Positions 3,415-60,000 of a stretch of DNA of 64,000 bases are shown here, piece by piece. The stretch is from assembly GCA_943704415.1 (NCBI GenBank), contig CALSCO010001838.1, positions 36,711 to 100,710 on the forward strand. Reading direction: 5' to 3'. The position numbers and the translations under genes are program-made. The notes below the pieces were generated by a model that saw nothing but the letters and a program-made list of their open reading frames with translations, made no database searches and was not told the origin of the DNA. The DNA is from Parvularia atlantis. Lineage: Eukaryota; Opisthokonta; Rotosphaerida. Positions within the stretch are counted from its first letter, which is position 1. Every line of letters begins with the position of its first letter.

Positions 3415-4123
3415 TCAGCCACGGAGAAACTTGGCACGCGCGAGCCACGCCGCAGGGCCCTTGGCGCTGTGCAGACGCTCGAGCGCCTCCTTGTCCGTGC
3501 CCATCAGCACAGCGTCCTCCTCGGCCGTCCATACCGGCACGTCTGCGCGGCGAGCGTGTCAGCGCGGCACAGACACACAGGGTGGGCGCACCGCAGTGCC
3601 GCAGCACGCTCAGCGCCCAGTCCACGTCGCCGCAGCACATGTAGAGCGCGTACAGGCACACGTGCGGCTCCTGCTGCCTGCATCCGTGCGTCTGTCTGCC
3701 ACCAGAGCGCGAAGGCATGCGAGCAGAGACGCACGTCAGCTTCTGCAGGCGCTGCACGGCCTCGCGTGCCCGCTCATGGTCGTTCGGCAGGGCCTGCGCG
3801 CACAACACGGCTCAGCACCATTCGGGCCATCGAGCGCAAACGTGCCTGCGTCGCCTCAATGTCGTCGCCACCCGCGCCGGACAGCATCTGCTCGACCTCG
3901 GCGTCGTCCTCGTCGTCGTCGTTGTCGCCGTTGCGGCGCGCGTACGCCGCCTTGCCCGCGGCCGGCCGTGAGCGCGCCGGTGCCGGTGGCGGCTGCATCT
4001 GCGCGCGCTTGACCGGACGCGTGTTCTGCTCGTCCTCGTCCTCCACCAGCAGCCGCCGCTGAGGGCCTCGCGTCAGCCGCCCGCACAGCATCGTGACACA
4101 GCACACCTTCTGCCGCCGCGCTG

Positions 4124-4157
<34 letters not shown>

Positions 4158-5624
4158 ACGCTGGCTGCGCGACTTGCTGCTCGTCGGCGCCTGCTCGCTC
4201 GCGTCGCTGCCATCGTCGCCGTCTGCGTCGCCGCCCGCGTCCTCCTCCTCGTTGCCGTCGTTGTAGACCGCCGCCTTGGGCCGCGTGGGCTGCAGCGGCG
4301 CGCTCAGCTCGATCTGCGCCAGCTGCTCCATCTTCTCCTGCGAATGTCGGGGCGTGTGAGCGGATGCAGCAGGGATGCGCTGGCTGAAGCGCGTGCCTTG
4401 GCGTTCATCGCGGCGGCACGTGCGCTCGGGCGCCGTGCGTGCGTGGACGGGCGCACGTCGGAGAACTCAGTCCACAGGTTCTGCGGCGCGGTCAGCACGC
4501 CACACACCCCACGCCGCAGCGCCTGCGCGCCCACACCGCGTCCTCCAGCGACGAGGCGACGCCCTTGCGCAGCGGCGGCAGCGCGTGCGGCGGCGAGGGC
4601 GCCCTGCGCGGCCGGCTGGCCTGCTGCTGCACGGGACGGTCAGCACGCATCGCGATCGCATGCGCGTCACGCACACACACCCGCTTGTAGTGCGGCGGCG
4701 CGTAGGCCTCGCTGCCCGAGCCGTCCGAGTCCTGCGACGGGCCGGCCTTGAAGCGGCTGCTGACGATGCGGTAGGCGCTCTCGCGCGTGGGCGGGTCGCG
4801 CAGCGTGTGTTGCAGCTTGTCCTCGGCGATGGCCGCAAAGCGCTTGCTGGCGACCATTTGCTTGAAGTGCGAGTCGATCGACATGACCGTGTGGTTCTTG
4901 AGCTGTGTGCGATGTCAGCCTGTGCGCCTCGCCGCGCGGTCGCCGCACCGACTCGGCACAGAGCTCGAGAAACTCGCTGCGCAGGAGCTTTTCGCTGCCG
5001 TCCTTCTTGTCAATGTGCTCGATGTACAGCCGCACGATCTCGACGTCCTCCTCGGGCGTGTAGCGCGAGCGCCTGCGCATCGCGAGTGAGCGGGCACGGG
5101 CGCGGATCAGCGTGCGGCGCGCACTTGGTAGGCGAGCTGCCGGCCGCGCGCGGCGCGATGTCGACGGACGGGTGCGCGGGCTGCGCGGGCGCGGGTGCGG
5201 GCGTGGTCGACGGGACCCGCGCGGCGTCCTTGGCGGCGACGAAGCGGAAGCGGTCGAGGTCCTGCAGCTGGCCAGCGCGGACGCTCTCGTGCACAAAGTC
5301 CTCGCTGCCGATGCGCCGTCGTCGCCGTCAGCAGGCGGATGGCACCGCGGCGGAGAGACGCGCCTGATCCAGTTCTCGGTCATCGCGACGACGGCCGGGT
5401 CGGCGGTGCGCGCGGCGAGCACGAGCGACTGCCGCGTCGTGTGGCGCAGCAGCTCACCCCCGTGTTCCTTATTCGCCACGCGTCAGGCGCAGCACATGGC
5501 AAGCGGGGGGGCGCCGCGCACCGTGACGAGCCGCGCAATCTCGTCGTGGCGCCCGCCAAACGTCCGCGAGACGTAGAACTGCAGCGGGCGCCCCGCGTCG
5601 CTCCACAGCAGCGCGCGTTTGTCA

Positions 5625-5669
<45 letters not shown>

Positions 5670-5761
5670 GTCGTCGTGGTCGTCGTGGTCGCGGCGGCGG
5701 CGGCAGCAGCAGCGGCGGGCGGCGCCGCGGCGTCGACGGCGCCAACGGTTTCGGGATCCAT
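3415..5761 (-). CDS. RAP1: RAP1 telomere protein (BRCT-Myb-RCT)
   Basis: Shelterin/telomere protein. Start ATG 5761-5759 gives MDPETVGAVDAA, then an Ala/Thr run and a Ser-Thr dipeptide repeat. A BRCT domain follows (LLWSDAGRPLQFYVSR; HGGELLRHTTRQSLVLAA; DFVHESVRAGQLQDLDRF). A 54-nt intron, GTGCG...AAG (5468-5521), lies in the middle of the BRCT and restores the frame. Next is a Myb-type domain (RYTPEEDVEIVRLYIEHIDK, then SIDSHFKQMVASKRFAAIAE), a Gln run and acidic linker, and a Rap1 C-terminal domain. The last contains CCGDVDWALSVLRH and ends with VWTAEEDAVLMGTDKEALER and ...WLARAKFLRG before TGA 3417-3415. That ending is the classic RCT fold seen in vertebrate TERF2IP and yeast Rap1. Its divergent neighbour starts 42 bp away. 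Domain order is complete, so confidence is high. Confidence 0.88.
5630..5674 (-). repeat. Hexanucleotide repeat coding Ser-Thr dipeptides in RAP1
   Basis: About seven tandem copies of GTGCTC (plus strand), followed by a GTCGTG-type run to about 5690. Read on the minus strand they encode alternating Ser-Thr and then a Thr run in the N-terminal tail of RAP1, ahead of the BRCT domain. The repeat is in frame and its length probably varies between strains. Confidence 0.8.
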
Positions 5762-5803: not shown

Positions 5804-6724
5804 ATGCTCGGTCGAGGGGCACGCGGGCTGCGCGTCGCGAGGCGTCCGCTCTCCGCCGCGGCCGTCCACAGCGCCGCGCCGATGCCGAGCGCAACCGAGA
5901 AGGACGCGGAGGACGCCGTGCCGCCCGGATGGCGAAGACACCTCGCCAGGCGGCTCAACGCGACGTTTGCGGCGCACCCGCTCGAGTCGATGGCGGCCGT
6001 CGTGTTGATCGACATCGCGACCATCTACGGCGCACACACGGCGCTCGTCGCCGCCGCCGTCCAACCGCCGGTCGAGCTCGCGATCGCCTTTGCCATCAGC
6101 CGCCCGCTGCGCCGCTTCCGCCTCCCGGTCGAGCTGGTCGTCGCCGAGGGCCTCGCGCGGCGCGTGCCTTGGCTCACGCACATCCGCGTCTCGCTCATGC
6201 TCAATGCGGCGGCGTGCGCCGTGAGCCGAGGGGCCAGTGCAGGGGCGAGCGCGGCGAGTGGAGGGGCCAGAGGGGCGAGCACTGCAAGCTCGGCCAACGC
6301 AACGGCTAGCACAACGCCGGCCGCACGACCCGGCATCGCGAGATGGCTTGGCAATGCGTTCACGAGCGCGGGCTCGCTCGTGACGCGCGCGCTGGACCGC
6401 TACGGCGTCACGTACACGCTCGCGTCGCGCCTCGTCGGCGTCGGCGTAATCGGCGCCTTGTATGCGGCGCTGGTCAACGGCATGGATGTGAGCAGGCTGG
6501 TGCGTGCGCACAACATGCATGCGAGGGGCTGATACGCCGTCAAGCTCGAGTGGGTCTCGGGTGTCGACATGAGCTCGCCCCTGATGAACTCGCTCGCCGT
6601 GTGGGCGCTCGCGGTCACGAGCACGGCAGTGATGTACCCGCTGACGATCACGAGCACCATCTTCCTCGCCCCGTTCCTCGCGCGCCTCACGCGCGGGCGG
6701 CTGAGTGTCAAGCGCCCGCAATGA
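5804..6724 (+). CDS. FAM210/DUF1279-like mitochondrial membrane protein
   Basis: Start ATG 5804 is followed by an Arg-rich, acid-poor stretch (MLGRGARGLRVARRPLSAAA) typical of a mitochondrial presequence. Two regions look membrane-associated: one around IDIATIYGAHTALVAAAV, and a C-terminal DUF1279-like block (LDRYGVTYTLASRLVGVGV, IGALYAALVNGMD). A 57-nt intron from 6488 (GTGAGC...AAG) joins to LEWVSGVDMSSPLMNSLAVW and then a last hydrophobic segment ending TRGRLSVKRPQ and TGA 6722-6724. FAM210A/B proteins are inner mitochondrial membrane proteins linked to mitochondrial translation and haem metabolism. The tyrosine-glycine start of the DUF1279 block fits, but the match is short. The middle has a low-complexity Gly/Ala/Ser insert. 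Alternative: an unrelated small mitochondrial membrane protein. Confidence 0.5.
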
Positions 6725-6755: not shown

Positions 6756-9403
6756 TCACGCCTCCTCTTTGTGCTGCCACCGCGGTACGGGCGACGACGT
6801 TCTGGCAGGCAGCGCCGGCCGCGGCACAAGCCGCCACAGCAGTGGCGTTGTCAGCAACGACAGTGCCGTGGTGCCGAGCACGAGGTAGTAGCTGTGCGAC
6901 CGCGCGTGAGTGAGTGCGAGCGGCGCGCCAAGGGAGCGCCGCGCACATCTCGCGGGAAATGAGGCCGTACGCGCGCGCCCGCGCCGCCAGCACAAACGCA
7001 AACTCGGACACTTGCGACAGCGCGAGTGCGATTTCGGCCGCGGACGGCGTCGGGAAGCGGAAGAGCGTGCGCAGCACAACGAAGCTGCGCGTTGCGGGAG
7101 GTCAGCGGGCGAACAAGTGCGCACGGATTGAGGCTGCACACCCAAGCACAAACTTGAACAGCACCGTGCCCGCGGTGAGCAGCAGGAGCAGCGGCAGCTG
7201 CTGGTACAGGAAGAGCGGGTAGATGTGCAGCCCGATCGACGCAAAGAAGATCGCGGAGAAGATGTCGCGCACGGGCCCGAGGAGCGGCAGCCCTGCACCG
7301 AAGCGTCAGCGGCAAACACGGCAGCCGGCGTTCGCGCACCGTTCTCGACGTACGAGTGCCGCACGGACGCCTGCAGGCCGGCGACGAAGCAGCCGAGCTC
7401 GAGCGACAGCCCGAGCACGTCGGCCAGGTACATCATCGCGAAGCAGTGCGAGAGCATGCCCAGCAGCGTCACGGCCGGGCTGCGGTGCCTGAACTGCACC
7501 AGGCGCATGAAGCCGATGTTGACGAAAACGCGCGTCGTGACGAAGGCCACGGCCATGAACATCGTCGTGGCCAGGAGCAGGTTGAGCACGATCCACAGCA
7601 CATTCCAGGTCGTGTGCCGCATCAGCGGCATCACCGCCAGCAGCACGCCCAAGTACATGTCCTGCGCACGCACGTCAGCTGCAGATCCAGCAAAAAGGGC
7701 GTGCGCACCTGCAGCACGAGCACGCCGACCGTCGCGCGCCCCTCGGGCTTGTCCATCTCGTCGTGCGTGAGCGTCGTCACGACCACGGCCGTCGACGACA
7801 GCGACGCGCAAAAGCCGATGGCGAGGCCCTCGACCGTCGCGCCGCCGAGCACGGAGCCCGCGAGCGCGCCGGCGCCGCACACGAGCAGCATCAGCAGGCC
7901 CGAGCCGTAGACCGCCACGGTCCACACGCCGCGCAGCTTCTCGAGCGAGAACTCGAGCCCGAGCACAAACAGCATCAAGAAGATGCCCAGCTGCGCCACC
8001 GTCTCGACCTGCACAAAGCTCTTGATCAGGTTAAGGCACGACGGCCCGAGCAGGATGCCCGCGAGGATGTAGCCAAAGATCTCGGGCATGCCCAGCGCGG
8101 CGACGGCCCAGCCGCACGCAAACGACGACACGACGACCTTGACCAGGTCAAACAGCAGGCGCACGTCCTCGTACGGCACCGTCGTGTCCTTGGGCTTGGC
8201 AAGCACGTACACGTTGTTGTCCGGGTCAACCAGGAACGACACGCCCGTCGCCGCCCCGCCGCCGTGCTGCCCGCGCCGCTGCTGGTGCTGGCTCGTCAGC
8301 GTCAACTCCGAATGCTCGGTCTTGTCGCTGTCGGAGGCGGTGGACGCCGCGTCGTCGCCCGCCGCCGCGGCATCATAGTTACCGCCGAGCGCGTCGGCAC
8401 TGCTGTCGCTGCCGCCGTCATCGGCCTGCGCGGTGTCACCGTGCTGCCTGTCCTCTGGCCCGCTCTCGCCCAGTGCGGCCTGCTCGGCAGCGCTGCCGGC
8501 GTCGGCCGCGCCGTCGTCGCTTGCGCCCTCGGGCATGCCGACAAAGGTGATGCGCCCGCGCTCGCCGCTGTCAATGTCCTCGCCCTCGACGCGCAGCACG
8601 GTCTCGATCGTGACGCTGTCGCTCTTCTGCACCTTGTTGAACGTGTGTTCGGCCAGGCCCTTCTCGAGCTGGTCGGCCGCGCTCTTGACGCCGTCGAGCA
8701 TCTCGCGCGGCCGCTCGGTCGTCGCGTTGGCGTTGCGCGGCGCCAGGTCGTCGTCTTGCCCATCGCCCGCGCCTGCGCCCGCGCCCTGCCCGTCGCCCGC
8801 CACCGCCGTCCGCTGCTCGGCCAGCGATCGGTCCGGCTGATTGTCGCGGGAGGCCGCGTCAGCGCCTCCGTCATCGGCACGTGCCACGTCGCCGTCCGCC
8901 GCCTCGTCCGCCGCGGCGCTGCTGCCGTCGCCCGCGTTGGCGTTCTGCTCACGCGCGACCAGCGCCTGGTACTCGAGCTCGGCCCGCAGCGACTCGAGCT
9001 GGGCGGCGCGCATGCGTTCGCGCGTGGCCTTGAGCAGGCCCTTGGTCGGCACGGCGGCGGTGGCGTTGGCGTCGAGGGCGCTGCCGAGCGCGGCGAGGGC
9101 GTCGAGGGCGGTGCGCTCAAGCTCGTTGACGCGCTGCAGCCGGCGCGCCGCGTGCTCGTCGCCGGCCTGCACCGCGCTCTGCAGCTCGCGCGCGACGACG
9201 CTCTTGAGCGTGAGCAGCGCGCGCACGTCGCGCGAGTGCAGCAGCTGCTGCTGATCGGCGGTGGGTGGTGGCGTGGACGTTGACGATGCCGCAGTCGAGG
9301 CGGTGGACGATGCCGCGGCCGAGGCGATGGACGAGGCGATGGCGAGGAGCAGCAGCAGCGCGCCGAGTCGAGGCGGCGGCCGCACGCCTCGCCACCATGC
9401 CAT
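6756..9403 (-). CDS. TMCO3/KEA-like CPA2 K+(Na+)/H+ antiporter
   Basis: Start ATG 9403-9401 (MAWWRGVRPPPRLGALLLLL) gives a signal peptide. A long luminal or extracellular region follows, with a coiled coil around TLKSVVARELQSAVQ and Asp/Ala-rich low complexity. The C-terminal half is a Kef-type exchanger: GMPEIFGYILAGILLGPSCL, LGIFLMLFVLGLEFSLEKLR, FCASLSSTAVVVTTL. After an intron near 7680 come further helices (HTTWNVLWIVLNLLLATT; LGLSLELGCFVAGLQASV) and, beyond an intron near 7310, IALALSQVSEFAFVLAA. The stop is TGA 6758-6756. The signal-peptide, coiled-coil and exchanger order matches TMCO3 in animals and KEA4-6 in plants, which sit in endomembranes and set luminal pH and K+. It faces eIF2B epsilon head to head (103 bp) and meets the FAM210-like gene tail to tail (31 bp). 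Confidence 0.8.
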
Positions 9404-9506
9404 AGCTGCGATTGTCGGCGCGGTTCATGACACCGTGGCCTCCACCAGCGCGCCCATGCTGTGTTTCGCGTGCCCTCGCCTTGGCCCATCGCGTACCCTC
9501 AGCATC

Positions 9507-12320
9507 ATGAGCGGCGGCAAGGCGCGGCCGGGCAGCGCCGCGAGCGAGCTCGAGGACCAGCTGCTGCAGGCCGTCGTGCTCGCCGACTCGTTCAACCGGC
9601 GCTTCCGCCCGCTCACGCTAAGCCGGCCCAAGGTGGCGCCGTGCGCCCCGATTGTGCCCGCATCGAGCTCAATCCGCACTCGCGCAGGCGCTGCTCCCGC
9701 TCGTCAACCAGCCGCTGATCGAGTACACGCTCGAGCTGCTGGCCGTGTCGGGCGTGCACGAGGTCATCGTCTTCTGCTGCTACGGCGCCGAGCAGCTGCG
9801 CGCGTATCTGAGGTGCACGCGGCGGCCGCGATTGCACCATCAGCCGCATCCGCTCACAGGGCGAAACGCAGCACGTCGGCGTGGGCGCGCCCCGAGAGCC
9901 CCTTCGCCGTGCAGGTCGTTGAGGCCAAGGACTCGATGAGCGTGGGCGACGCAATGCGCGACCTTGACGCGCGCTCGCTCATCAAGCGCGATTTCATCCT
10001 GCTCAACGCCGACGTCGTGTCCAACCTTGACCTCGAGCCCGTCCTGCGCAAGCACATGTGCGTGCACCGGCTGGGTGGTGGTGGGGCTGACGGACGTGCG
10101 GGCCGCAGCATGCGCCGCCAGCGCGACAAAAACACGCTCATGACGATGGTGCTGCGCACGATGCAGCCCGGCCACCGCTCGCGGTTCGTGCGCACCGGGG
10201 CTGGTGCACGACTGACACGTGAACGGCAGGCCTGCGGGCGAGGAGGCATGCATGGTCGTCGATCCCGCGACGAGCCAGCTGCTGCAGTACCAGCGCATGG
10301 GCCGCGCGCGGCGCGTGGCCATCGGCCTCGACGCGCTCAAGGAGCACAGCGTGCTGTCGTTCCGCAACGACTTTGCCGACTGCCGCATCGACATCTGCTC
10401 GCCCGAGGTGCGCGAGGCAAAGCACGCTGGCCTGTCTGACGTGGCGTTGCGGGCAGGTACCGGCGCTGTTCACCGAGAACTTTGACTGGCAGGACATCCG
10501 CGACGACTTTGTGCGCGGCGTGCTCGAGTCGGACATTCTCTCGCACAAGATCTACACACACGTTGTGCGCGAGGGCTACGCCGCGCGCGTGCAGAGCCTG
10601 CGCACGTACGACGCCGTCAGGTGCGCCTTGGGTGCAGTGTGTGCGTGCGCTGACGCGGCCGAGTGCAGCAAGGACATCATTACGCGCTGGACTTTCCCGC
10701 TTGTGCCCGACGCCAACCTATTCAACGGGCGCGCGTACGCCTTTGGCCGCAACAACGTCTACAAAGACATTGACGTCGTCCTCGCCCGGTGCGCGCCCGG
10801 TGCGGTTTGCTCAGCGGTGCTGACGCCTTGTGCGTGCGCAAAAGGTCGTGCCGCGTGTTGGGCAACACCGTGCTCGGCGAGGGCACGGTCGTGGGCGTGG
10901 ATACGTTTGTTCGCAGCGCCGTGCTCGGGCGGCACTGCAAAATCGGTGTGCTCCTTGTGCTGCTTGGTGCACGGGGCTGACGGCGCGCAACGCAGGCGAC
11001 CGCGTCACGCTCGAGGACGCGTACCTGTGGGACAACGTGACGATCGGTGAGGGGTGCAGCGTGAAGAGCGCCGTGCTTGGCGACGGCGTCGTGCTGCTCA
11101 GCGGCACCACGGTGTCGCCCGGGTGCATCGTTGCCGACAACGTCTGTGGTGCTGCGGCTGTTGTGCTTGGCTGAAGGGGCGTTTGCGCAGGTGACGCTGG
11201 GACCGGACGTGACGCTGCCGCCGATGACGCGCGTCGCGGCCGTGGTGCAGCCGCGCGGGGCAGGCAAAGCAGGTGCGGCGGAGCGGTGGTTGGGTGCGCG
11301 CGCTCATGTGATGCGCGAGGACAGACCCGCTCGTCGTCGGCGCCGGCAGCAACGCAAACGTGTGGGCGCGACCGGTGCGCAGCGCACGCTCTGTGCGAGG
11401 TGGTGCTCACTCAAACGCGGGCCAGCTCGTTGAGGAGGATGGCGACGACGACGACGACGACGACAATGACGACGACGACGGCGGCACCACTGCAGACTGG
11501 AGCGCCGAGCATGCGTCCTTCGGCTCTGCGCGCGCGGCCGCGCCACCGGCACCAATCGATGCCAACGACGACGAATCGAGCGACGACAGCACGGCCGACC
11601 TCGAGAACGCGGACGAGCAGTCGGATGAGGACGTGGACGACGCGACCCGTTGCGTTGCTTGCCCTGCTGCTTTCCTGGTTTAACCGCGCGTGGCAGGCTT
11701 CCACAACGAGGCGCGGCAGACTGTGGCGCGCGCGCTGGGCGAGAAGCACACGGTCGACAACGCTGTGCTCGAGCTCAACGGGCTCAAGTTTGCGTACAAC
11801 GCGTCCTTCCGCGACTGCTACACGGCGGCGCTCGAGGCACTGCTCGAGTCGGTCGACCCCGCCGCATCGATTGTCGAGGCGCTCAAGAAGGTACGCCGCG
11901 TGTTGCGCGCGTGTGGCCGGCCTGACATCGCGGCGCGGCGCAGCTGATGATGCCGTGGGGCGGCGCACTGCTCAAGAAGTTTGTGCGCACCACAGCCGAC
12001 CAGGTCGACGCAATCCACGTCATCCAGGTGCGGCCCTTCGCCACGCGCGTGCGCACGCGCTCACACGCACCGTGCAGCGCATCTGCGCCGAGCATGCGCA
12101 CCTGCACAAGGCCTTCAGCCCGACGCTGCAGGTGCTCTACCACACCGACGTCGACGTGCTGCAGGACGACGCGCTGGTGCAGTGGGATGGCGACGCGGCG
12201 TACTGGGCCTCGGCCGGCGCCGTCGAGCAGCAGCTGCACGTGCAGGCGCAGAGGTTTATCGCCTTTGTGCGTGAGCAGATGGACGACGACGACGACGACG
12301 ACGACAAAGACGAAGAGTGA
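9507..12320 (+). CDS. EIF2B5: Translation initiation factor eIF2B subunit epsilon
   Basis: Catalytic subunit of the eIF2B guanine-nucleotide exchange factor. ATG 9507 (MSGGKARPGSAA) precedes LLQAVVLADSFNRRFRPL. An intron of about 55 nt (GTGGCG...CAG) then joins to ALLPLVNQPLIEYTLELL, the nucleotidyltransferase-like fold of gamma/epsilon subunits. FTENFDWQDIRDDFVRGVLE lies near 10490. Left-handed beta-helix repeats follow (NTVLGEGTVVGVDTFV, LEDAYLWDNVTIGEGCSV). After an Asp-rich linker (11440-11490) the W2/HEAT exchange domain appears: ELNGLKFAYNASFRDCYTAA, then HLHKAFSPTLQVLYHTDVDV and an acidic tail ending DDDKDEE and TGA 12320. The acidic C-terminus is typical for this subunit. At least eight short introns interrupt it. 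Its stop is 20 bp from the stop of ERO1. Confidence 0.93.
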
Positions 12321-12340: not shown

Positions 12341-13495
12341 CTACACAGCAAGAAGGGGCGCGATGCCGACGGTGTGCACGGCCTCGGCGAGGCGCCCGAG
12401 CGTATTGAGCAGGGCGACGACGCGGCGTCGCGGGATTGCTGCCACCGGCAGGTTGCGGTCGGCGAGCACACGCACCGCCGTCGCCAGGCCCTCAAGCTGC
12501 AGGCGGCCCCACAGCCGGCAGCGCTCGCAGCCGATGCACTCGGACAGCTCGGTCAGGCGCTGAAGCTGCTCCGCCCAGGCGCCGACGACAGCCGGCTCGG
12601 CCTCGCGTGCGTCGCGCGTCCGCAGTGCAGCCAGGGCGCGGCGCACGGCACGCAGCGGGCGAGGCCACCGGTCGCGCGTCGCCAGCAGGTCCGCGAGGCG
12701 TGCCGTCGCGTCGACATCGTCCAGCGGCGCGGCTTGCAGCCACCCGGCGTCGGTTGCGACGTCGAGCGCGTGCAGCACGAGCACAAACGTCTCCACGAGC
12801 GCGCTCACGCGATCCGGGTGGTCGAGCACGCGCGCCGCCAGCAGGTCCAGATCGGCCACCGTCCCGTTGCCGTCGCGCGCCGGCTGTCCCGCGGCGACGT
12901 GCGCGCTCACGGCGGCGTGCAGCCCGCTCACGGCGCGCGGCAGCAGCAGCGCCAGCGGCCCGGCGTCCACCTCTGTCGTCATCGCCGTCGCGTGCAGCGC
13001 GGCCCACAGCGCGGCGCCGTCGTACGCCGTGAAGCGCTCGGCCGTAGCGGCGAGGTCGTACACGGCCAGTGGCGCGCGGCCCTCGTCGAACGAGAGCGGC
13101 GCGATCCACGCGTCGTCCGCGTCGTCGTCCGCCACGTCGTCGTCCGCCACGTCGGCCAGCGGGTCGATCGCGCACGCCCGCACAGCGCACGTCGCCGCGT
13201 CCAGCACCGCGTCCGGCGCCGCCCGCCGCACCGCATCGGCCGCGCGCGGCGGGCACGACGGCGGCAGCGGCTGCAGCGCGAACCGGCGCACCGCCCGCGT
13301 CGCCAGCAACGGCAGCAGCGACGGCAGCACCGCGTGAGCCGTCGCGTACGACGCGTGTGCCACGTCGCACCCGCACCGACGACGCGTCGCCGTGCGCGCC
13401 AGCGGGTCCGGCACGTCGGTCGTGCGCGGTGGGGCGCACGGGCAGGCCGCTGCTGCGACGGCAAGCAGCAGCAAAGCCGCGCAGGTGATGTGCAT
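12341..13495 (-). CDS. ERO1: ERO1-like ER thiol oxidase (single exon)
   Basis: A single uninterrupted frame of 384 codons from ATG 13495 to TAG 12343-12341. The N-terminus (MHITCAALLLLAVAAAACPC) is a signal peptide. Early cysteines follow the Ero1 pattern (CGCDVAHASY). The shuttle pair is in CAVRACAIDP, where family members usually have CAVxxC. ERFTAYDGAALWAALHAT corresponds to the FTGYxGPxAW region. The FAD-proximal active-site motif is ECIGCERCRLWGRLQLEGLA, which fits C-x2-C-x2-C followed by W-x-K/R-L-Q-x2-G. It oxidises PDI using O2 and FAD in the ER lumen. It is short compared with the usual 450-560 residues, very Ala/Arg-rich, and lacks the GPxAWxIW tryptophans. It is one of the few intronless genes here. 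Confidence in the family is good; activity of this diverged copy is inferred. Confidence 0.82.
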   Translation of the reverse strand: MHITCAALLLLAVAAAACPCAPPRTTDVPDPLARTATRRRCGCDVAHASYATAHAVLPSLLPLLATRAVRRFALQPLPPSCPPRAADAVRRAAPDAVLDAATCAVRACAIDPLADVADDDVADDDADDAWIAPLSFDEGRAPLAVYDLAATAERFTAYDGAALWAALHATAMTTEVDAGPLALLLPRAVSGLHAAVSAHVAAGQPARDGNGTVADLDLLAARVLDHPDRVSALVETFVLVLHALDVATDAGWLQAAPLDDVDATARLADLLATRDRWPRPLRAVRRALAALRTRDAREAEPAVVGAWAEQLQRLTELSECIGCERCRLWGRLQLEGLATAVRVLADRNLPVAAIPRRRVVALLNTLGRLAEAVHTVGIAPLLAV

Positions 13496-13542: not shown

Positions 13543-13837
13543 TCAGGCTGCAGGCACTGGCACGTCTTTGGCCAAGCGATCCGGCCTCAGCCGCACGTCC
13601 ACAAGCAGCTCGAGCGCGCCCTCAAACGCGGCATCGGTGATCGCGGGGCACCGGCGCAGCCGCAGATCGCGCTGTGCATCAGCGCGGTCAGCACGCAGAC
13701 GCCTTGCACACCCGGTCACGCACGAGATGCGGCAGCGCGGCCAGCCGGCCCGTCCAGGGCGGACGGTGCGCACCGTCCGCACGGCCCTGCAGCACGACGA
13801 GCCACGGGGCGCGTAAACCCAGCCATAACCACCTCAT
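13543..13837 (-). CDS. Small LRR-like protein (about 80 aa, two exons)
   Basis: Start ATG 13837-13835 gives MRWLWLGLRAPWLVVLQGRA and reads to LAALPHL. A 52-nt intron (GTGCGTGACC...CACAG, CTGAC-like branch) then restores the frame into RDLRLRRCPAITDAAFEGAL and ends KDVPVPAA with TGA 13545-13543. The second exon looks like one leucine-rich repeat of the AMN1/F-box-LRR kind (LRL-x-C-xx-ITD-x-A). It fills what would otherwise be a 386-bp gap and puts its start 44 bp from the divergent HbrB gene, matching spacing elsewhere. It might be a fragment of a larger lost gene, or part of DMAC2/ATP5S-type LRR proteins. Function unknown. Confidence 0.35.
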
Positions 13838-15068: not shown

Positions 15069-15098
15069 CGTGTGTACAGCCAGGGGGTGGGTGCGCGC

Positions 15099-17572: not shown

Positions 17573-17603
<31 letters not shown>

Positions 17604-23709: not shown

Positions 23710-23746
<37 letters not shown>

Positions 23747-26163: not shown

Positions 26164-26219
<56 letters not shown>

Positions 26220-26222
26220 CCG

Positions 26223-26254
<32 letters not shown>

Positions 26255-49110: not shown

Positions 49111-50576
49111 ATGAGCGACAGCGGCACGTCCGACGACGACGGCTCGAGCCAGGTCACGGGCCTGACCGGCATCACTGTCTCGTCCGTGTCGGGCACGGGC
49201 CTGGGCGTGGGCGACGACACGGTGCGCGCACGCTCTCGTGTGCAGGGCGCGTCGCTTATCGACGCACACAGGAGGCGACGCGGCGAGCGATCGAGAAGCT
49301 GCTCGGCGGCGGCGAGAAGGCCGCCGTCGTTGTGCCGCGCACGCGCTGGGGGCGGCTGCGGCGCGCCGTGTACCTCTTCTTCGACGACAGCACGTCGAGC
49401 ACGCTCGCCAACTACTTCACGCTCTACTTCATCGCGCTCATCATCCTCTCGACCCTCACCTTCTGCCTCCAGACCTTCGCCAACCTCTCGGCCACGCGCG
49501 CGCAGGCGCAGGCGTGGGCCTACATGGAGGTGTTTATCGTCGCGCAGGTGCCTCGCGCCCCGTGTCGTCCCGCGGCACACGGCCATCGCTCACGCGCCGC
49601 GCCACCGCAGTTCACGGCCGACTACCTCATCCGCATCTGCACGTGCCCGCGCGTGCTCAGCTTCTTCGTCGCACCGCTCAACGTGATTGACCTCGTCGCC
49701 ATCCTGCCCTTCTGGATCGAGCTCATCCTCGTCACCAGCTCGGGCTCGTCGGCCGGCGTGAGCAAGCTCGCCGTCGTGCGCGTGCTCCGCCTCGCCCGCG
49801 TCCTCCGCATGTTCAAGCTCGGCAAGGGCTCGCTCCAGCTGCAGCTTGTCACGACCGCGCTGCGGCGCTCGCGCGACGGCATCGTCCTCCTGCTCCTGCT
49901 CTTCCTCATGGGCTCGATCGTCTTCTCCAGCGCGATGTACTACGCCGAGACGGCCTCGTGCTACCTCGACCCGGACACGGGCCTGTGGCTCTACAGCAAC
50001 TCGACGCTGCACCCGGACGAGGTTTCGCAGTTCCAGAGTATCATCTCGACCATGTGGTGGGCCGTCACGACCATGACCACCGTCGGCTACGGCGACGCCT
50101 ACCCGATCACCGACGCCGGCAAGGCCGTCGCCGTCGCCACCATGCTCGCCGGCATCCTCGTCGTCGCCTTCCCAGTGACGATCATCGGCGGCAACCTGAA
50201 CGAGGTCTACGCCGAGTTCCGCGAGGCCACGCTCAAGCAGAAGAAGCTGCAGAAGCTGCGCACGAAGGCCAAGCTGGCGCTGGGCGTGCGCGATGCGCTC
50301 AATATCATGCGGCCGCAGCAGGTGCAGCTGCGCTCGCTCTCGGCCGAGCGCGCGCAGGAGGTCATGAGCGAGCCGCTTGAGCTGTCGGCGCGGCGCGTGG
50401 GCGAGGAGCTCGCGTGGACGATCACGGACGTGCACGAGTCGACTGCGGCGATCCGCGAGCACCTCGGACGGCTCCTGGCCGCGCGCACGCGGCTCGAGCA
50501 GCTACACGAGGAGCTCGCCTTCCTCGTCGAGAAGCAGAAGAGCCTGCCGGCGGTGCGCGTGAGCGGCGAGAGCTGA
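49111..50576 (+). CDS. Voltage-gated K+ channel, six-helix (copy 2)
   Basis: ATG 49111 (MSDSGTSDDDGSSQVTGLTG). An intron from about 49226 joins to EATRRAIEKLLGGGEKAAVV. S1 is YFTLYFIALIILSTLTFCLQ. A 63-nt intron (49548-49610) sits at exactly the same codon as in copy 1 (IVAQ|FTADYLIR). S3 is LNVIDLVAILPFWIELILVT. S4 is VVRVLRLARVLRMFKLGKGS. The pore has MWWAVTTMTTVGYGDAYPIT, and S6 MLAGILVVAFPVTIIGGNLN. The C-terminal coiled coil includes LKQKKLQKLRTKAKLALGVR and TRLEQLHEELAFLVEKQKSL, ending RVSGES, TGA 50576. It lacks a T1 domain, like copy 1. The shared intron position, shared extracellular loop (LDPDT-LWLYSN-TLHPDEVS) and near location show an old local duplication. Confidence 0.92.
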
Positions 50577-50907: not shown

Positions 50908-53900
50908 ATGGTCAAGGTGCTGCTGTTCCAGCTGTTCTCGCGGCACCAGGTGCTGTCGACCGAGCTCGAGCCGGTCGACACGGCCGTGGTGCGCGACGAC
51001 GTGTTCCTGCTGGCGACCAAGGAGGGTGCGCCGCCGCGTGCCGCGCTGCTCAGTGCTGCCGCCCAGGCCAACACGGCGCAGGGTCGATCCAGGCGTACTC
51101 GTCGGCGGACGAGTGCGTGCTCATGCACCAGTTCTTCGTCGCGGGCGCGTCAGTGCTGTCGGTGCAGTATGTGCCGCACCTGGACGCGTGCGTGCCGTGA
51201 GCCCCCGTCTGTCTCGAGCGTGCACCCTCACGCCGCCGCCCGGACAGCGTGCTCACGCTCGAGCGCAACTCGGACAAGACCGGCTCGGTCGTCGTGCGCG
51301 CCTACCTCAACTGGCGCCAGGCCCTGTCCAGCACCGCGCCCGCGCTCGTCCCCGTCCACGGCGCGCGCGGCGACGGCGCCGAGGCTGCCGAGGACGACGA
51401 CGCGCCCGCCTTCGAGCCCGAGAAGCACGCCTCGGTGCGCCTCCGTGTCCCGGCCCCGCACGAGCACCCGCCCACGCACGCGCGCACACACACACGCGCA
51501 CAGGCCGTCTGGATCTACCGCTTCCCCAACATCGTCACGGCCACGGCGCTCGCCGTCTGCCCCGTCTCAGGCAACATCGCCGTCGCCCTCGGCAGCAGCA
51601 TCCGGTGCGCGCCCCGTGACGCAGCTCCCCCTTCCTCGGCCGCCGCTGAGCAGCTCGCGCCCGCCCGACAGCGTCTACGCCCAGGCGCACCTCGCGCACG
51701 GGCTCGCGCACCCGTTCACGTGCTTCCTTGAGGTCGACTCGTACTTTGACGTGACCATGCTCTCGCTCTGTATGCACACCCTCGCCTTCGCCTGCGCCAA
51801 GGAGCTGCAGGTCATCCGTGTCGACCTACGCAGCGACCCCTCACGCGCCAACGGGGTGCGCGCCTCACTCGTGCGCGCGCATGCTGGCTGAGCGTAAGTA
51901 CCGCAGCATCTCAAGCTCGACACGGCCGCCGCGATGGTCCGCGCGTCCTTCTCGGGCACGACGCCGCGCTCGCCGGCTGCCGTCGTCGACCTCGACCTGC
52001 CGCAGCCGCTTGAACCGATCAACGACACGTACGTCGTCGACTGCGAGTTTGACCAGGGCGGCGCCCTCCTCCCTGGTAAGGTGCGCGCCAGCTGCGCACA
52101 CATGGCGTAGCCCCCCTCACCCTCGCAACCAGGCCCACATGACGCTGCTCCTGCCCGGCATCCCGACCACGCAGCAGATCAAGCAGGCTGTCTCGTCCAA
52201 CCAGCGCGGCAGCGCCAGCCTGCAGGTCGTTGGCCCGCGGCGCTGGACCGACAACACCGTGCGCGTCGTCGCGCAGCCGCACCAGCAGCCGCAGCAGCCA
52301 CCCGCGGCCGCGTCGTCATCATCGTCGTCGTCGTCCTCCGCGGCACTCGCACGCACACCGCGCATCGGCAGCTCGCCCAGCCTGGGCCTGTCGGCAGATG
52401 CGGGGCCGAGCAGCGGCATCTCGGCGTCGGTGAGCACAACCGTCAGCGGGGGCGATGCACTCATGCTGTGTGCACGCGCGATGCAGCAGACAGCGTTGGT
52501 GCAGGAACAGACCATCCCCGAGCACCTCTACGTCGCCGAGGTGTGTGCACGCGTGCGCCTCGTGCCGCGTATGCTGAGGTGCTCGGCCTACGCAGGTCAC
52601 ACTGCTGCTCCACCGGCGCCTGGCAGACGGCAACGACATCAACAAGATCTGCCTGAACCCGGAGCTGCGCTCGCCGTCGTCGCAGGGGCCAACCTTTGCC
52701 CAGGCACGATACAATACGCGCGGCGATCCTCGCTGACACCGCACATGTGCTGCAGGACGACGACGGGGCCAGCCGGTCGCCGAACGGCGCATCCGTGTCG
52801 CCGCTGCTGCGTCGCAGCGCCGAGGCACGCTCGCGCGCTCGTTGCCTGGTCGCGCTGTGCTCACGCCGCGCCGCAGGTCCAGCGGCTGCACATCTTCTGC
52901 TCCGACTCGCAGAATGGCCTGCTGTACGACGCGTCGTCGTGCCGGCTGCTCGCGCGCTACTCGTACACGAGTGCGGCCCGCCAGCGCTCTTGTACTGCTT
53001 CTGCCGCGCTGAAACGGCGAGCGCAGGCATCGCGTGCGACGCCACGCTGACCAACCTGTTCCTTTATGTCGTGACCGAGGCCGGCCTCGAAACGTGGACC
53101 GTGCGCAACTCGCTCACGAGTGCGTGCGCGCTTCTGGCCGGTGAGTGTGGCTGACCGTTCCCGGAGGCCGCGTGCACAATGATCCGCTCATGGCCGACGT
53201 CGACTGCCCCGAGCCCTGCCTCATCGGCTTCCAGCCGTTTATGTCGGTCAAGGCCGTGGTCGCGTCGGACTCGTTCGTCGTCGTCCTCTCCAAGCACGTG
53301 TTTGAGGTGCGCAGCACTTGCCCCTCCCTCCCTCGTCCGCGCCTGCAGCCTGCTTAGCCCGCCGCGCCAGAAACCGCCACCGCGCCGTGGCCCGGGCGGC
53401 GGCCGCAAGCAGTCCAAGGCGCCGCTGACCGACGTCATCGAGGGCGGCTACGTCAACATCAGCACGCCGTCGTCCAACTCGGCCGCGACGTCAACGCGGT
53501 CCTTCGCGTCGTCACCGCGCTCCTTTGGCGCATCCTTCCGCGGCCTCACGTCGCTCACGGCGCTGGTCCTCGGTGACGAGCGCGACGTCGTCAGCACGGT
53601 GCGTGCGGCTGCATGCAGCTAAGTCCTCGGTCTGACGCGGACGCTGCGCAGCTGGACAAGGACGCGGCGCAGTTCCTGCCGGCGCCGGGCGAGATTGCGT
53701 CGTCGTCGTCGTGGGTGCTCTACGTGCTCTCGCCCGTGCCGCTGCTGTCGCTGGTGGACGAGATGAGCCGCAGCGCGGCCGCGCAGCGCTCTACAAACCC
53801 AACCGTGCACTTCCTGCTCCTCCTAGAGGCGTTCCACCTGCTGCAAACCAAGGTGCGCGCACGGTCTGGCCCTGCTTGCGAGGACATACAGGGGCCAATG

Positions 53901-56900
53901 CGGGGTGCGCCGCCGCAGCTGCTTTTGGTCGAGTCGGCGCTGCAGCCGCGCGATCCCGTTCCGGCTGCGTCGGCCTCAACTACTTCCTCGCCTGCCACTG
54001 CACCGATCATGTTCCGCGGCATGCTCCGCCGCACGCAACCGGCCGCAGACCCGGTCAAGGCGCTGGCCTCGTCGCTCGAGGCAACGAACCTGCAACGTCT
54101 GCTTCAGGCCTCAGCACTGGCCATCGCTGGTGCGCAGCACGAGAGCCCCGCGCGATGCATGTACTCACCGTGCGTTGCGCTCAGACCTCTTCCTGAGTGT
54201 CGAGCAGTACACGGCCGCGGCGCACTTCCTTGTGCTGTCGCGGCGGCCTCTCGCGGAGGTGCGCCGGCCGTGTCACTCGCACTTGCTCGCTCACCTCGCG
54301 CATCGCAAGGTCATGGCGTTCATGGACGTGACGTCCATGGCCGATGACAGCAGCAGCGCACTCGCGGGTCGGCCTGCGTGCGTCAGCGGTGCCGCGCCTG
54401 CCACGCACAGCGCTGAGCCCGTCGCCCGCAGCGTCAGCGGCGAGACCATGGCCCGGGCGCGCGGGCTGCTCGCGTACCTCGACCGCGTCCTATTCGACCC
54501 ACGCCTTGCGCCGCCGCTGCCGGCGCACGGCGAGGACGGCGACGTCTCAAACCAGATCCTGCGGGTGCGCGCTGGCTGGCACAGCGTCGTGAGCGCTCAC
54601 GCGTCCCGTCACCAGTTTTACTGCAAGTACCAGGACGCGCGCCTCTGCGATGTCGTACTTGACAGCGGCCTGGACGAGTATGACCAGGAGCTGGCTGTAC
54701 AGCTGCTCGAGGGCCTGCACAAGCAGCGACTGATGTCGCAGGGTGTGCGCACATTGAGAGCGCGGCGCCGCCATGTGCTGACCGCCCCGGCGCACACTCA
54801 GCGCTGCTCAACGAGGGGCGCATTGAGCCCAGCGTCTCGTCCATCTCGTCGCGCCGGCCGCGTGAGGCGTTTGCGCTGGCGCTGCTGTGCCTCGATCTCG
54901 GGCGCCCGCTGACAGCCAAGCAGCGTCTGACAGAGATCGAGCGCGGTGCCGTCGTGCCGCTGTCTGCCTGCTGTGTGCTCACGCGTGCGCCGCGCAGGCG
55001 ACCTCGTGGCCCTGTGCGTCGCCTACGGACACCTGCTCGGCCCGCAGCCGTGCGTGCACATGTGCCGTTGGTCGCGCGGGCTGACACGCCTGTTCCGCAG
55101 TGCGTCGACCGAGCCTCCTAGCGCGGCGGAGCTCGTGCTGCGGCGCGCGCAGGCGGCCGTGCCCGTGTGGAGCGACTCACCCGCCGCCGCGCCGCACTCG
55201 CCGTCGGTGGCGGACGGTGCGCCAGCGGTGGCGGTGGCGTGTTTTCGTGCTGACGATGCCGCGGCACGCCAGACATCTTCTCCGCCGACTCGCCCGACGC
55301 CTCGACCGTCCTCGGCGCAGCCAGCGGGACAAGCGCAGCAAGTGTGTCCGTGCCAGACCTCGCGCCGCTCTCGCTTGGGCAGCTGCTGCGCCTGGCCATG
55401 CCGTCGGTGCTCGCGGAAGCGCTGCGTCGCATCTCGTCGGCCATCCCGCTTGCTGTCTCTGTCGAGGTGCGCCTGCCGCGTGCGCCGCACATTGCGCGCG
55501 CTCACACGCGCTGCCCACGGATGCAGCTGCTGCGCTTCATGTCGGACACGTGGCGCGACCTGCGCAACGCAGAGGACACGGCGGACACGCCCTCGCTCTT
55601 GCGGCCCTTCCTCGAGCACGTGATCGTCTTGGCCGAGCTGCCTGCCACCAAACGCGCCCTCGCCTTCCGCGAGCTTGAAGCGCTCTACGTCAGCGCCGTG
55701 CAGACCGCACTCACCGCGCCGCGGCTGTCCGAGCCGGGTGCGCCGTCGTTTGTTGACAGCGGTCGTCGCTTGCTGATAAGAGGTGACGCGCAGACATGCA
55801 GCCCGCGCCGCTCGCCTCGCCCGTCCTCGCCGTGGGCCCGACGCTGTCGCCGGCGAGCGCGCGCGCCTCTGCCACCAGCCACCGGCGGTGCGGCGCGTCG
55901 CTGGCGTCTGCCGCTGGACTGACACGCGTCTGCAGATCGTCCAGCTCGTCCGTTGCCGAGGGTCACGGCGGCGCACCGGCGTCGAGCGCGTCGCTGGACA
56001 AGCTTGGGGCCATCGGGCCGTCGCCGCGCCTTCCCGGCCGCACTGGCGCCCCGTCCACGTGCGTGCCCGCTCAATGAGATGCTGTCGCGCTGACGCGCGC
56101 GCAGCGCCGTGTCGTGGCCGTCGCTGCGCCCCGAGTGGCTCGACGTGCTCGCAGGAGGTGCGTCGTGCTTTGCCTGGCCCGCTTTGCTCACGGCGCCGCG
56201 GCAGACGCCGAGGTGGACACTGCCCGCCGGCTGCTGCACAACCTGGAGGTGCGTGCATTGATTGCTGGCAAGCGAATTGACGCAGCGCGCGGCAGGGCAT
56301 CACCTTTCACCACTTTTACAAGCATCGCGAGCGTCTTGACGCGGCACGCGTCCCGGTGCAGGCGGGCGAGGCGCTGCAAACCGTCGCGGCGCTGCCTGCG
56401 ACGCTCGCGGGACCACTGCGCGTGCTGCTGCTCCCGCTCGCAAGACGGTGCGTCTGCACACGCACGCGCATGCACACGCTGAACGTCATCGCATGCGCCC
56501 AGCATGCCCGAGGCCGTGGAGACGCTGCTGGCGACGGAGACCGCGACGCCAGACGCCGTGCTCGGCTTTGCCAAGAGCGTCTGCGGCGACGACGTGCGTG
56601 CGGGGGGCACCGCACGCCCGTCTCACGCCCCCGTGCACGCACGCACGCAGATGGCGCAGTGGCAGCGCGTGCTCGACCTCCTGCTGCAGGCACGCGAGGC
56701 CGCCCCGCGCGAGGACCGGCGGCTGCGAAAGGCACGTGTTTCCTCGCACGTGCGCGTGCAGCGCCGTTAACGCGGCGCGCTCAGCTATGCCGCGAGTCGT
56801 ACGCGGCGCTGCTGTGGCACCTGGCCGAGCACGTTGAGCCGGCGACGCTCCTGCGCCTCATGCCCGACCAGGGCGCGCTCACGTTCTTCCTGCCGATCCT

Positions 56901-57003
56901 CGAGGCCGCGCTGCACCGCAACGCCGCCGGCGCCGTACGCGAGGCGGTCAAGGCCGACGCCACGCGCTTTGCACAGGTCGAGGCGCGCGAGGCCGCGCGG
57001 TGA
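50908..57003 (+). CDS. HPS3: HPS3-like BLOC-2 subunit
   Basis: ATG 50908 gives MVKVLLFQLFSRHQVLSTEL EPVD, comparable with the start of HPS3 (MVxLYNLHPFxSQxVxxxxLEP). RAYLNWRQALSS near 51300 matches the HPS3 RAYVNWR block. IYRFPNIVTATALAVCPVSG (VSGNIAVALGS) and LEVDSYFDVTMLSLCMHTLA are further propeller-like strands. The central exons (52080-53600) carry disordered Ser-rich inserts and GLETWTVRNSLTSA. The second half is helical: FQPFMSVKAVVASDSFVVVL, LARGLLAYLDRVLF-like AR ARGLLAYLDRVLFDP, YDQELAVQLLEGLHKQRLMS, LLRFMSDTWRDLRN. The end is LMPDQGALTFFLPILEAALH, matching the HPS3 tail (LPExGxATFFLPYLL), then AREAAR and TGA 57003. About twenty short introns. BLOC-2 directs cargo to lysosome-related organelles. 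The two end matches make the call good; the middle is diverged. Confidence 0.72.
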
Positions 57004-57087
57004 TAGGGCTTGCAGATTGCAATGATCAAGGTGCAGCACCCGCACAGGCAATAGCCAGAGGTGCTGTGCGCAACTATGGGCCACTCG

Positions 57088-60000
57088 TCAGCGTCGGTGC
57101 GTGCGCGCCCGGGTGACGCGCAGCTCGTCGCTGTGGAGGGCCTTGACAAAGTCGTCGGCGTCGTCGTCGTCATCGCTGCGCTCGGCTCCGCTGCCGTACT
57201 CGCTCTCGCCCGAACTGCTGTCGGCCTCGTGTGTGCCACCACCGCGCTCGGCGTACGTTACAGGCGCGCGGCGCGTCGACCGCGTCTGCGTGTGCAGTCA
57301 GCGCCACAGTCTGCACAGTCGGCCTGCGCGCACCGGCCGCCGCGACGCCTCGTCCTTGCACGACGGGCAGACCCATGCGCCGCTGCGTGGCCGCGCGGTG
57401 AGCTCACCGTCGCAGACGCGCGCGCACTTCAGGGCGGGCGCACCGGGGCACGCGACGCAGCGGAGGGCGCAGGCAGCCGAGGTGGAAGGCCTTGGGGCAG
57501 CTGTCGCAGCAGAGCAGCTCACCGCCCTTGCTGCAGCGGGCGCATTGGTCGCTGTGCGTCTGTCGCCGAACGGCGTGAGCGCGCACGGCATGCAGGCGCA
57601 GCCCCCGCACGCGTACATCGTCGTCCTCGTCCGCCTCGACGTCCACGTGCTTGTCCGCCTCGGCTGCGCGCGTGCGCTTGCCGACGCTCCGGATCTCGAC
57701 CGCGACCACCGGCTGCGAGCTCTGGCTGCCGTCGATGAGCACGTCCTCACTCGCCGCCTCGGCTTTCCTGCTCACGCCCTGCGTTTGGTGGCACCGCAGC
57801 GCCAGCGACGCCCACGTCGGCGGCTGCGACGCGTCCCCAGCCGCCGCGCCCATCAGATCAAGCACAGCCGCAAACGATGCGACGTCCTATGAGGGCGTCA
57901 GCGCCACGGTCTGCCGCATGCACTCGTGCGCACGCACGTAGGCCGTCTCGACCGCCGACGCAGACTCGTCGTCCGTGTCGGCCGCAGCAGACGCGCTCAC
58001 CCCGCGCCGGCGCTTCGTGTGGTGTGCAGGCTTCGGTGGGTTGAGCCGCTTGCGCAGCTGCTGGATGCTGCACGCAGCCGTGAGCACCATGATAGAGCCG
58101 CGCTGAGCGTCGCATGCACCGCTGACGAAGCTTGCTGCGCAGCTGCGCGGTGAAGTGTGTCTTGTTGTCGATTCGCACCACCTCGCCGCCGCTCTCCTGA
58201 GCTTCGATGCGCTCCTGACGCGCGCAGACCCAGTCGCCCATCGCGACGAAGGCGGCCCCGATTTCGTCCTGCACTACCGCGTCAGCGCGTACGGCACCGC
58301 GCAAGTCTGGCAGGGACGTGCCTTGTGCTGCTCGAGCGCCTTGATGAGCGCACTCTCGCGGATGCCCTGGCGGTTGAGGCCGCCGCGGACTGCGTCGGGC
58401 GCGCGTGGATCAGTGCAGCTGCGTGCGGAGCAGTGTGTGCCGGCGGCGCACCCTTGGCCAGCAGCTCGGCGCTCTCGAGGTAGTACCAGCTAGACATATC
58501 GTCGTCCGCGATCTCAACGAGCAACGCGTTGCGCAACGTCGGCACGAGCCAGAACGCGCGGAAGCTGCGGTCGCGCCCGAGCGCCGCCAGGCGGATGTGC
58601 CGCTGCTTGCGTTCTCTGTCCTCGCGTGCGGTCTCCTGTTGCCTCTGGCGCCTGAGCTCTTCATCGCGCGCCTGCGCCACTTTGCGCTCCTGCTCGCGCT
58701 GGGCGCGGTGCGCCGCGGCCTCCTCCAGCCGCCGACGCTTCTGCAGCTCGATCATCTTGCGGCGCGACATCGGGCGGTCCTCTTCCTCCTCCTCCTCCTC
58801 CTCCTCCACCTGCTCGTGCTCGCCCTTGGCCTCCTTGGCGTCACCCTCGGGCGCACTTGGCCCTGTCGACTTGACCGCTGCAGATGCCTCCGCAGTGCTG
58901 GACGTCTGCTTGTCCTTACCCTTGTCCTTGTCTTTGCGGCGCTCGTGCCACGCCTCGCGGCGCTGTTCGATCGTCGCCTCAAGCGCCGAGCTGATCTCGT
59001 CGGCAAAGTGCGGCAGGACCGCGTCGACGAGCGCGCACGCCGCGCGCAGCAGCGTCACCGCGTCGAGCTGCACCACGTCGTGCTCACGCAACGCCTGCAG
59101 AGGTGGCTGTCAAGTCATTCACGGCTGCTGACGAGACGCACCTGCGCGAGGTCGCCGTGGCCGAGACGCGCAAGCTGTGCGCTCCAGTGCAGCGGGAACG
59201 TGAGGATGTCCATCTTGGGCAGCGCGGCGAGCGCGTCCTTGGCCTCGTCCGCGAGCACTGCGACGGCGACATCAGCAGGAACACGGCAAGCGCAGCAGGC
59301 CAGCCGCACCGTTCAGCATCGCCAGCACGACGGCCGGCAGCGTCGAGAGCTCCTCGTGCCCGCACATCTCGGCCTCGAGCGTCACTGCCCACTCGCGGTC
59401 AGCAGGGCGACGCGCGTGTGGCTGGGCAGCGCACCCGCGTCTGGCTCGACGTCGCGCTCGTCCAGCTCGAGCAGGTCCGCAAACGCGCGCGTAAACTCGC
59501 TCAGCATGATCAAGTTGGCAAAGTGCTCCTCCGGCAGCGTCGCCCGCCCCTGCGCGTCGAACGGCACGCGCGTGATCCACGCGACGACGATGTCCTAAGC
59601 CGCACACGGGCGTCAGCAACCCGTGCAACGAAGCAGCAGCATCGGCACGTAACGATGCTCGCGTTGGGCAGGCTCAGGTCCTCCACGAGCGGCTTGCGGC
59701 CCCTTCCGTGCTGCTTGAGCTGGATCAGCGCGGGCGCGGCGGCCGGAGCGGGTCTGCCGAGAGCGCGAGTGAGCGACGCACACCCGTGGCAGGAGCGGCG
59801 CACTGGAAAGCGCTGAGGAACTTGCGCTTCTCGGGCGAGGTGGCGATGCTGTTGCCGAGCGAGTGCTTCCGGGCGAGGCTGCCCGGCGGCGCGGTGGTCT
59901 TGCTTGGGCTCGTCGGGGCGACGAGCTTGCTGCGAACGGCGGCGACGGGCTTCCTGTGTGTCACGCTCACGCGTGAGCGTTCGGGGCGCGACGATCAGCC

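Follow-up and report, generated by a model that had tools for sequence, protein, structure and literature searches.

In Parvularia atlantis, neighbouring protein-coding genes tend to lie on opposite strands. We analysed a 64,000-nucleotide stretch of its genome (C442:36711-100710, from contig CALSCO010001838.1; hereafter the window) together with further sequence of the same assembly, and found the genome to be biased against same-strand neighbours, which make up about 26-30% instead of 50% of junctions in the sampled contigs. This bias acts per junction and is not a long-range order. By their distribution in the gaps between genes, two distinct short elements, TGACA and TGTACA, mark gene starts and gene ends. 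With somewhat better than even confidence, we favour the explanation that alternation arises from junction-by-junction selection against placing an orientation-neutral promoter behind the 3' end of another gene.

Neighbouring genes switch strands throughout the sampled sequence

After curation, the window holds 29 genes, with the strand order --+-+-+-+-+-+--+-+-+-+-+-++--, and 24 of its 28 junctions join genes on opposite strands (p=9e-5 against 50%). Adding one doubtful leucine-rich repeat (LRR) gene yields 24/29 (p=2.7e-4), which reproduces the count of the original prediction, made from the letters of the window alone, and agrees with its hand-calculated binomial of about 3 in 10,000. Among the same-strand pairs listed there, ELYS/RAP1, BSD/HDDC2, Kv/HPS3 and WSD/DEX1 are certain, whereas ERO1/LRR rests on the doubtful gene. 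To cover sequence outside the window, we took 232 kb out of the roughly 16.2 Mb remaining in the assembly (16.25 Mb, 616 contigs), namely C442:1-36710, the complete C570 and 50 kb each from the beginning of C485 and C127, the latter three contigs having been picked since kinase matches revealed them to be long. Switching near 50% elsewhere had been named as the outcome that would overturn the idea; instead, 78 of 109 junctions outside the window switch (71.6%, confidence interval 62-80%, p=3.9e-6 against 50%), and the bias therefore belongs to the genome, as far as it was sampled. Pooling all four contigs (296 kb) gave 102 switches in 137 junctions, with 35 same-strand junctions (p=4.3e-9), and 9 of the 11 junctions in nine short loci from other contigs switch as well. 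Could the window nevertheless be a lucky stretch in a genome of random strands? Its 24/28 does exceed the 78/109 of the rest, but the two do not differ significantly (Fisher p=0.15), the switch rate elsewhere also lies far from 50%, and in 20000 within-contig shuffles of the strand labels the observed total was never reached. For the four contigs analysed, local chance, which we consider very improbable, is refuted.

Successive switch indicators proved independent of each other (counts of 74, 27, 24 and 8; Fisher p=1). Independent junctions with a high switch rate account for the alternating runs, the longest of which comprises 13 genes, so that the "sustained alternating chain" of the original prediction was overstated: a rate of 72-75% per junction yields the chain. 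A kinetoplastid-like polycistronic layout was not seen in the four contigs, where the longest same-strand run comprises six genes, at the end of C570. Unseen genes breaking the pattern, the other outcome that had been envisaged, did not turn up either. The window contains no Rfam match at gathering scores, and its sole ARAGORN call, a tRNA-Cys at 29737-29811, overlaps an exon of a protein gene, lacks an Rfam match at the gathering score and is probably false.

Gene finding and the flip control

Because the genes carry many short introns, we called them with a splice-aware hidden Markov model (HMM) trained on the sequence itself, unsupervised, first on the window and then again on the four contigs. 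The median intron is 54 nt long according to the window-trained model and 56 nt according to the four-contig model, in which 690 of 1175 donors read GTGCGC or GTGCGT and the usual acceptor is CAG. GC donors occur too (GCGCGC, 28 cases; GCACGC, 25 cases; window plus C442, C570, C485 and C127). The idea of an altered U1 matching the GTGCGY donors was rejected, as the U1 small nuclear RNA (L033:706-869) carries the ordinary 5' end AUACUUACCUG. The GC content is 70% in the window and also about 70% in the other stretches read from the assembly.

Curation by hand merged four split calls (HDDC2, COP1 and a bZIP tail in the window, a septin outside), based on Pfam for HDDC2, domains for COP1, reading of the protein for the septin and judgement for the bZIP tail. 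Merging was limited to splits judged by protein content because a likelihood test failed to separate splits from true tandem pairs: the split-versus-fused difference was 0.4 nats for HDDC2 and 2.0 for COP1, compared with 1.9 for a CCT-theta/WD40 pair that by reading represents two proteins. Two calls of fewer than 50 amino acids (aa), both outside the window, were dropped, and ERO1 was set by hand to a single 384-aa frame (13495-12341), which alters a gap and no strand. Unmerged raw calls give 24/31 switches in the window and 102/143 in the four contigs.

A finder that fuses same-strand neighbours would inflate alternation. Consistent with such an artefact, the split-versus-fused differences are sometimes small (from 0.3 nats), ERO1 needed correction, and the model at C570:6735-9918 (L013) includes an in-frame stop codon where two exons are spliced, a limit of a home-made gene finder. 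However, when gene units were randomly flipped and the finder rerun, 20 of 258 artificial tandem junctions were fused and 0 of 572 units split; called switching was 0.556 versus a true 0.536, and all 16 runs returned the exact number of strand switches. After correction for fusion, the switch rate is still 70% for the sequence outside the window and 73% for all four contigs together. This control is partly circular, because it is built from the finder's own genes, and it did not recreate the splits seen in real sequence. The opposite error, one gene split into same-strand pieces, also occurs (HDDC2, COP1 and the septin). Moreover, a Pfam scan covering 27 of the 29 window genes (28 queries, COP1 as two pieces) placed 20 above the family cut-off and four below it only (FAM210, BSD and the genes at 17260 and 22842), with no match at all for three (15099, 28073 and 42145); two unrelated families in one gene were found in 0 of the 27. 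An artefact of gene finding thus appears improbable to us.

Gap lengths and the saving of space

Gene spans take up 93.6% of the 296 kb. The gaps run between predicted codons, with start codons predicted and untranslated regions not included, and over the four contigs their medians are 92 bp for tandem, 101.5 bp for divergent and 74 bp for convergent pairs. All 50 divergent gaps stay within the 1 kb limit for bidirectional promoters (upper quartile 182 bp, largest 606 bp). In the window, the convergent gaps measure 31, 20, 30, 38, 10, 81, 125, 74, 78, 237, 87 and 84 bp, equal to the stop-codon distances first reported in 11 of 12 cases, the remaining one being 125 bp here and 55 bp there. The divergent gaps are 120, 103, 386, 41, 32, 90, 83, 45, 42, 105, 153 and 111 bp; eight of the 12 start-codon distances agree exactly and two within 2 bp, whereas those of RAP1/FAM210-like and ERO1-HbrB, where start codons are uncertain, differ.

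In so compact a genome, alternation might simply save space: divergent pairs share promoter space and convergent pairs terminator space, while same-strand pairs need both in a row. The high share of sequence within gene spans fits this idea, as do gaps far below the fungal means quoted in PMC2871058 (1343/688/1230) and the fact that the convergent class is the shortest (p=0.08 versus tandem). Tandem gaps, however, should then be the longest, and they match the divergent ones (p=0.98). As same-strand gaps are no longer than divergent gaps, measured from predicted start codons, space saving alone is unsupported, and we rate it as unlikely, though worth keeping in mind.

Short sequence words at gene starts and gene ends

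Words were counted in gaps between raw calls with 150 or more coding bases, excluding gaps shorter than 5 bp or longer than 400 bp; the tandem set includes false splits. TGACA or its reverse complement TGTCA occurred in 27 of 48 divergent gaps, where 8.0 were expected and 200 shuffles gave at most 15, and both orientations came together in just one of the 48. Convergent gaps showed no enrichment of this word (7/51, 11.0 expected). The palindrome TGTACA was present in 9 of 51 convergent gaps (0.8 expected) and in 1 of 48 divergent gaps (0.4 expected), with a density of 2.3 per kb in convergent gaps versus 0.19 in coding sequence. Counted on either strand, the shorter TGTAC reached 16/51 in convergent (4.6 expected) and 5/48 in divergent gaps (2.7 expected). 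Both signals are seen in curated gaps when the contigs are separated: TGACA/TGTCA in 13/19 divergent gaps of C442 (3.3 expected) and 14/29 of C570, C485 and C127 (5.3 expected), TGTACA in 4/21 (0.3 expected) and 5/30 (0.5 expected) convergent gaps, respectively. The longer form GTGACA/TGTCAC exceeded chance in same-strand gaps, with 4/9 (0.9 expected) and 5/24 (1.9 expected) in the two contig sets, which fits promoters. TATAA was missing from the gaps and AATAAA appeared in one divergent and one tandem gap only, neither being expected often.

Within the window, TGACA/TGTCA, taken irrespective of strand, lies in 8 of 12 divergent gaps (9428-9432, with others starting at 5797, 13845, 18223, 24046, 28027, 39397 and 42126), and also in one convergent gap out of 12 and in three of the four same-strand gaps. 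TGTACA lies at 15073-15078, and TGTAC or GTACA also at 6727, 44148 and 47843, together accounting for 4 of 12 convergent gaps; two of the 12 divergent gaps and one of the four same-strand gaps hold TGTAC/GTACA too. The earlier proposal of shared control at gene ends thereby gains partial support, at the sequence level, from TGACA in divergent and TGTACA in convergent gaps.

A proposed model of selection at each junction

The explanation we favour combines these observations as follows. Promoters would be short, orientation-neutral modules, built around a TGACA-type site in either direction and firing both ways, whereas gene ends would carry an orientation-neutral palindrome, TGTACA, able to serve both genes of a convergent pair. 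At a same-strand junction with little spacer, the two-way promoter would abut the 3' end of the upstream gene, and read-through could enter the next start. Rearrangements creating same-strand junctions would be lost more often, and alternation would be the sum of independent selection at each junction. A further step is more tentative, and we think it rather doubtful: promoter and 3' elements may both be symmetric, leaving no directional regulatory DNA, so that junctions would be reversible and alternation a direct genome-wide result.

Several observations weigh against selection at each junction. TGACA in tandem gaps is not above chance (10/36, 7.1 expected; 4/9 and 6/24 in the two contig sets), although each of these gaps needs a promoter. 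TGTAC, in turn, is found in 10 of 36 tandem gaps (3.2 expected); being above chance in same-strand gaps too, it is a 3'-end word and no mark of convergence. Its tandem occurrences, 8 in sense and 6 in antisense, suggest that it is orientation-neutral there also. TGACA/TGTCA is missing from 21 of 48 divergent gaps, and TGTAC on either strand from 35 of 51 convergent ones. The separation by contigs is no true hold-out, the words having been picked on all four, and in the nine short loci, which lay outside motif discovery, one of the four divergent gaps contained TGACA and three of the five convergent gaps TGTAC. Expectation-maximization motif learning on contig halves gave mixed motifs, the word counts being clearer. 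TGACA is also enriched in introns, in sense, following C in at least 61 of 93 cases at a median of 22 nt from the 3' splice site; this intronic TGACA probably represents the branch point. Of 32 listed occurrences in divergent gaps, 2 are preceded by C and 16 by TG or AA, a different context that makes unannotated introns an unlikely source. Finally, 11 of 35 same-strand gaps measure 50 bp or less, indicating that tight same-strand junctions are tolerated. At two places outside the window, same-strand neighbours whose products, read by eye, are unrelated lie just 34-36 bp apart and might be transcribed together: CCT-theta and a WD40 protein (C485:42562-46863, L027), and a HEAT-repeat and a nitrilase-like protein (C127:2191-4817, L028).

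Convergent genes could also accumulate if RNA interference had been lost and antisense overlap were no longer costly. The genome, however, encodes an RdRP (2.7e-101) and a Piwi-domain protein (1.3e-16), and the divergent excess would stay unexplained. With both genes present, loss of RNA interference is not the reason for the bias, and of all explanations it is the one to which we give least credence.

Genes of the window and the organism

At the left edge of the window, a gene for an ELYS-like nuclear pore assembly protein (1-3273, minus strand; Pfam ELYS 1e-35) runs off the sequence and shares its strand with the RAP1-like telomere protein (3415-5761, minus; Rap1_C 9e-9). They are followed by a weakly matched FAM210-like membrane protein (5882-6724, plus; FAM210A-B_dom 0.005, below cut-off), a TMCO3/KEA-type cation antiporter (6756-9403, minus; best named homologues about 40-45% identical, with PF00999 precomputed for them) and eIF2B epsilon (9507-12320, plus; LbH_EIF2B 1e-34, W2 3e-8). 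ERO1 (12341-13495, minus) has a signal-like N-terminus and matches Pfam ERO1 (5e-28) over the part common to the first HMM model, whose long intron was false. The strand opposite ERO1 carries, at 12564-13337, a long open frame whose third positions are strongly GC-rich; we read it as an antisense shadow frame. Next come the doubtful small LRR-like gene (13543-13833, minus), recognized by an LRR-like stretch by eye, and an HbrB/PRR5-like TORC2 subunit (13882-15068, plus; HbrB 2e-24), whose start differs between two HMM runs, 14161 being the alternative. A small HMM-only protein of no family (15099-15533, minus; no Pfam match) precedes an FG-GAP protein with a signal-like N-terminus (15575-17221, plus; FG-GAP_3 4e-13) and an acidic protein of no convincing family, called by the HMM, with below-cut-off Pfam matches within its acidic stretch (17260-18213, minus). 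Also HMM calls are a large 22-exon protein, PH/VASt-like by eye (18246-22831, plus), and a protein without assigned family whose N-terminus looks F-box-like by eye (22842-24004, minus; ClpS 0.002, below cut-off).

Further along are a tRNA dimethylallyltransferase (24095-25858, plus; IPPT 4e-55), a BSD-domain protein (25940-26956, minus; BSD 1e-4, just below cut-off) and, on the same strand, an HDDC2-like HD nucleotidase (27049-27989, minus), with HD_3 matching at 8e-42 across its two joined HMM pieces. A 750-aa protein of no family, F-BAR-like by eye (28073-31166, plus; 16 HMM exons, no Pfam match), is succeeded by NOMO (31292-35795, minus; Pfam NOMO domains), a bZIP factor to which a 26-aa tail piece was merged (35841-36621, plus; bZIP_2 9e-6) and a COP1-like RING-WD40 protein merged from two HMM pieces, one with RING and WD40, the other with WD40 (36696-39387, minus). 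EMC6 (39430-39854, plus; EMC6 3e-18), a phosphoesterase-family enzyme with a signal-like N-terminus (39933-42039, minus; Phosphoesterase 2e-96), a 553-aa HMM-called protein of no family (42145-44133, plus; no Pfam match) and ribosomal protein S2, probably mitochondrial (44371-45993, minus; Ribosomal_S2 1e-50), lead to two similar Kv-type channel genes on one strand (46147-47783, plus, Ion_trans 1e-33; 49111-50576, plus, Ion_trans 5e-38). Between them, on the opposite strand, lies a gene of the lysine methyltransferase family (47871-48999, minus; Methyltransf_16 1.5e-14); the pair looks as if duplicates had been interrupted or inserted with alternation left intact. The second channel gene shares its strand with an HPS3-like gene (50908-57003, plus; HPS3_N 1e-21, one distant match in a homologue search). 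The window closes with a WSD (DDT/PHD-type) chromatin protein (57088-60523, minus; WSD 1e-11) and, on the same strand, a DEX1-like protein (60698-63879, minus; Beta-sand_DEX1 3e-18).

The proteins place the organism likely outside Fungi, as nucleariid-like and near Fonticula. For the KEA/TMCO3 protein, the best named matches are fungal at about 40-45% identity. CCT-theta is 77% identical to a metagenome protein and at most 65% identical to named proteins among the 120 matches listed. In a tree of 31 rows, it groups with that metagenome protein and Fonticula (94/79), outside the fungal rows, and two further metagenome proteins join the group (100/98). An assignment to Caulochytrium was rejected, given this position outside Fungi and the lack of a close named relative among the matches listed. 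Rozellids and aphelids are missing from this tree, so that "nucleariid-like" is a likely placement. The 16.25 Mb genome encodes HPS3, COP1-like, Kv channel, DEX1, RdRP and Piwi proteins.

Discussion

Calling the pattern unusual was fair, given that according to the gene-orientation figures of a 64-species survey about 50% of pairs are co-directional in the majority of species (PMC2871058). It is not unique, as Ectocarpus is described as showing a relatively strong tendency to opposite-strand neighbours (PMC7784034). Monosiga, Cyanidioschyzon, Thalassiosira and Cryptococcus are named in the survey as exceptions with non-random orientation, and the likeness to them lies in non-randomness as such (PMC2871058). 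As in Ectocarpus, same-strand neighbours are clearly below 50% here. The figure given for Ectocarpus, 61.7% of genes at spacers adjacent to transcription start sites lying in divergent pairs (PMC7784034), compares with 100 of 135 gene 5' ends here (50 divergent and 35 tandem pairs), or 74%, although the definitions may differ. Unlike in Ectocarpus, where the median reported for divergent gaps (409 bp) is much smaller than that for tandem gaps (2293 bp; PMC7784034), the two are alike here. The lineages are unrelated, and the gaps of the present genome are far smaller. This genome appears to be a more compact variant whose bias, judged by the comparable figure, is stronger than in Ectocarpus. 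In the same report, divergent starts in Ectocarpus share chromatin while transcript levels are uncorrelated (PMC7784034), a warning against assuming co-expression of divergent pairs. For yeast, promoter spaces are described as having lower limits of about 80-260 bp; these are similar whether a promoter is one-way or divergent, a likeness that was linked by the authors to bidirectional promoters (PMC3128071). Compact spacers are common to both organisms; 14 of the 50 divergent gaps here are 50 bp or shorter, measured from predicted start codons, and fall under the yeast limits.

Coming from a lineage next to Fungi, this compact and strongly biased genome represents an independent case besides Ectocarpus. 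It raises the question of whether gene order is shaped by transcription, through two-way promoters and shared ends, rather than by spacing, and the two short elements open this question to testing. Should the more tentative view of reversible junctions be true, every junction would work best start-to-start or end-to-end.

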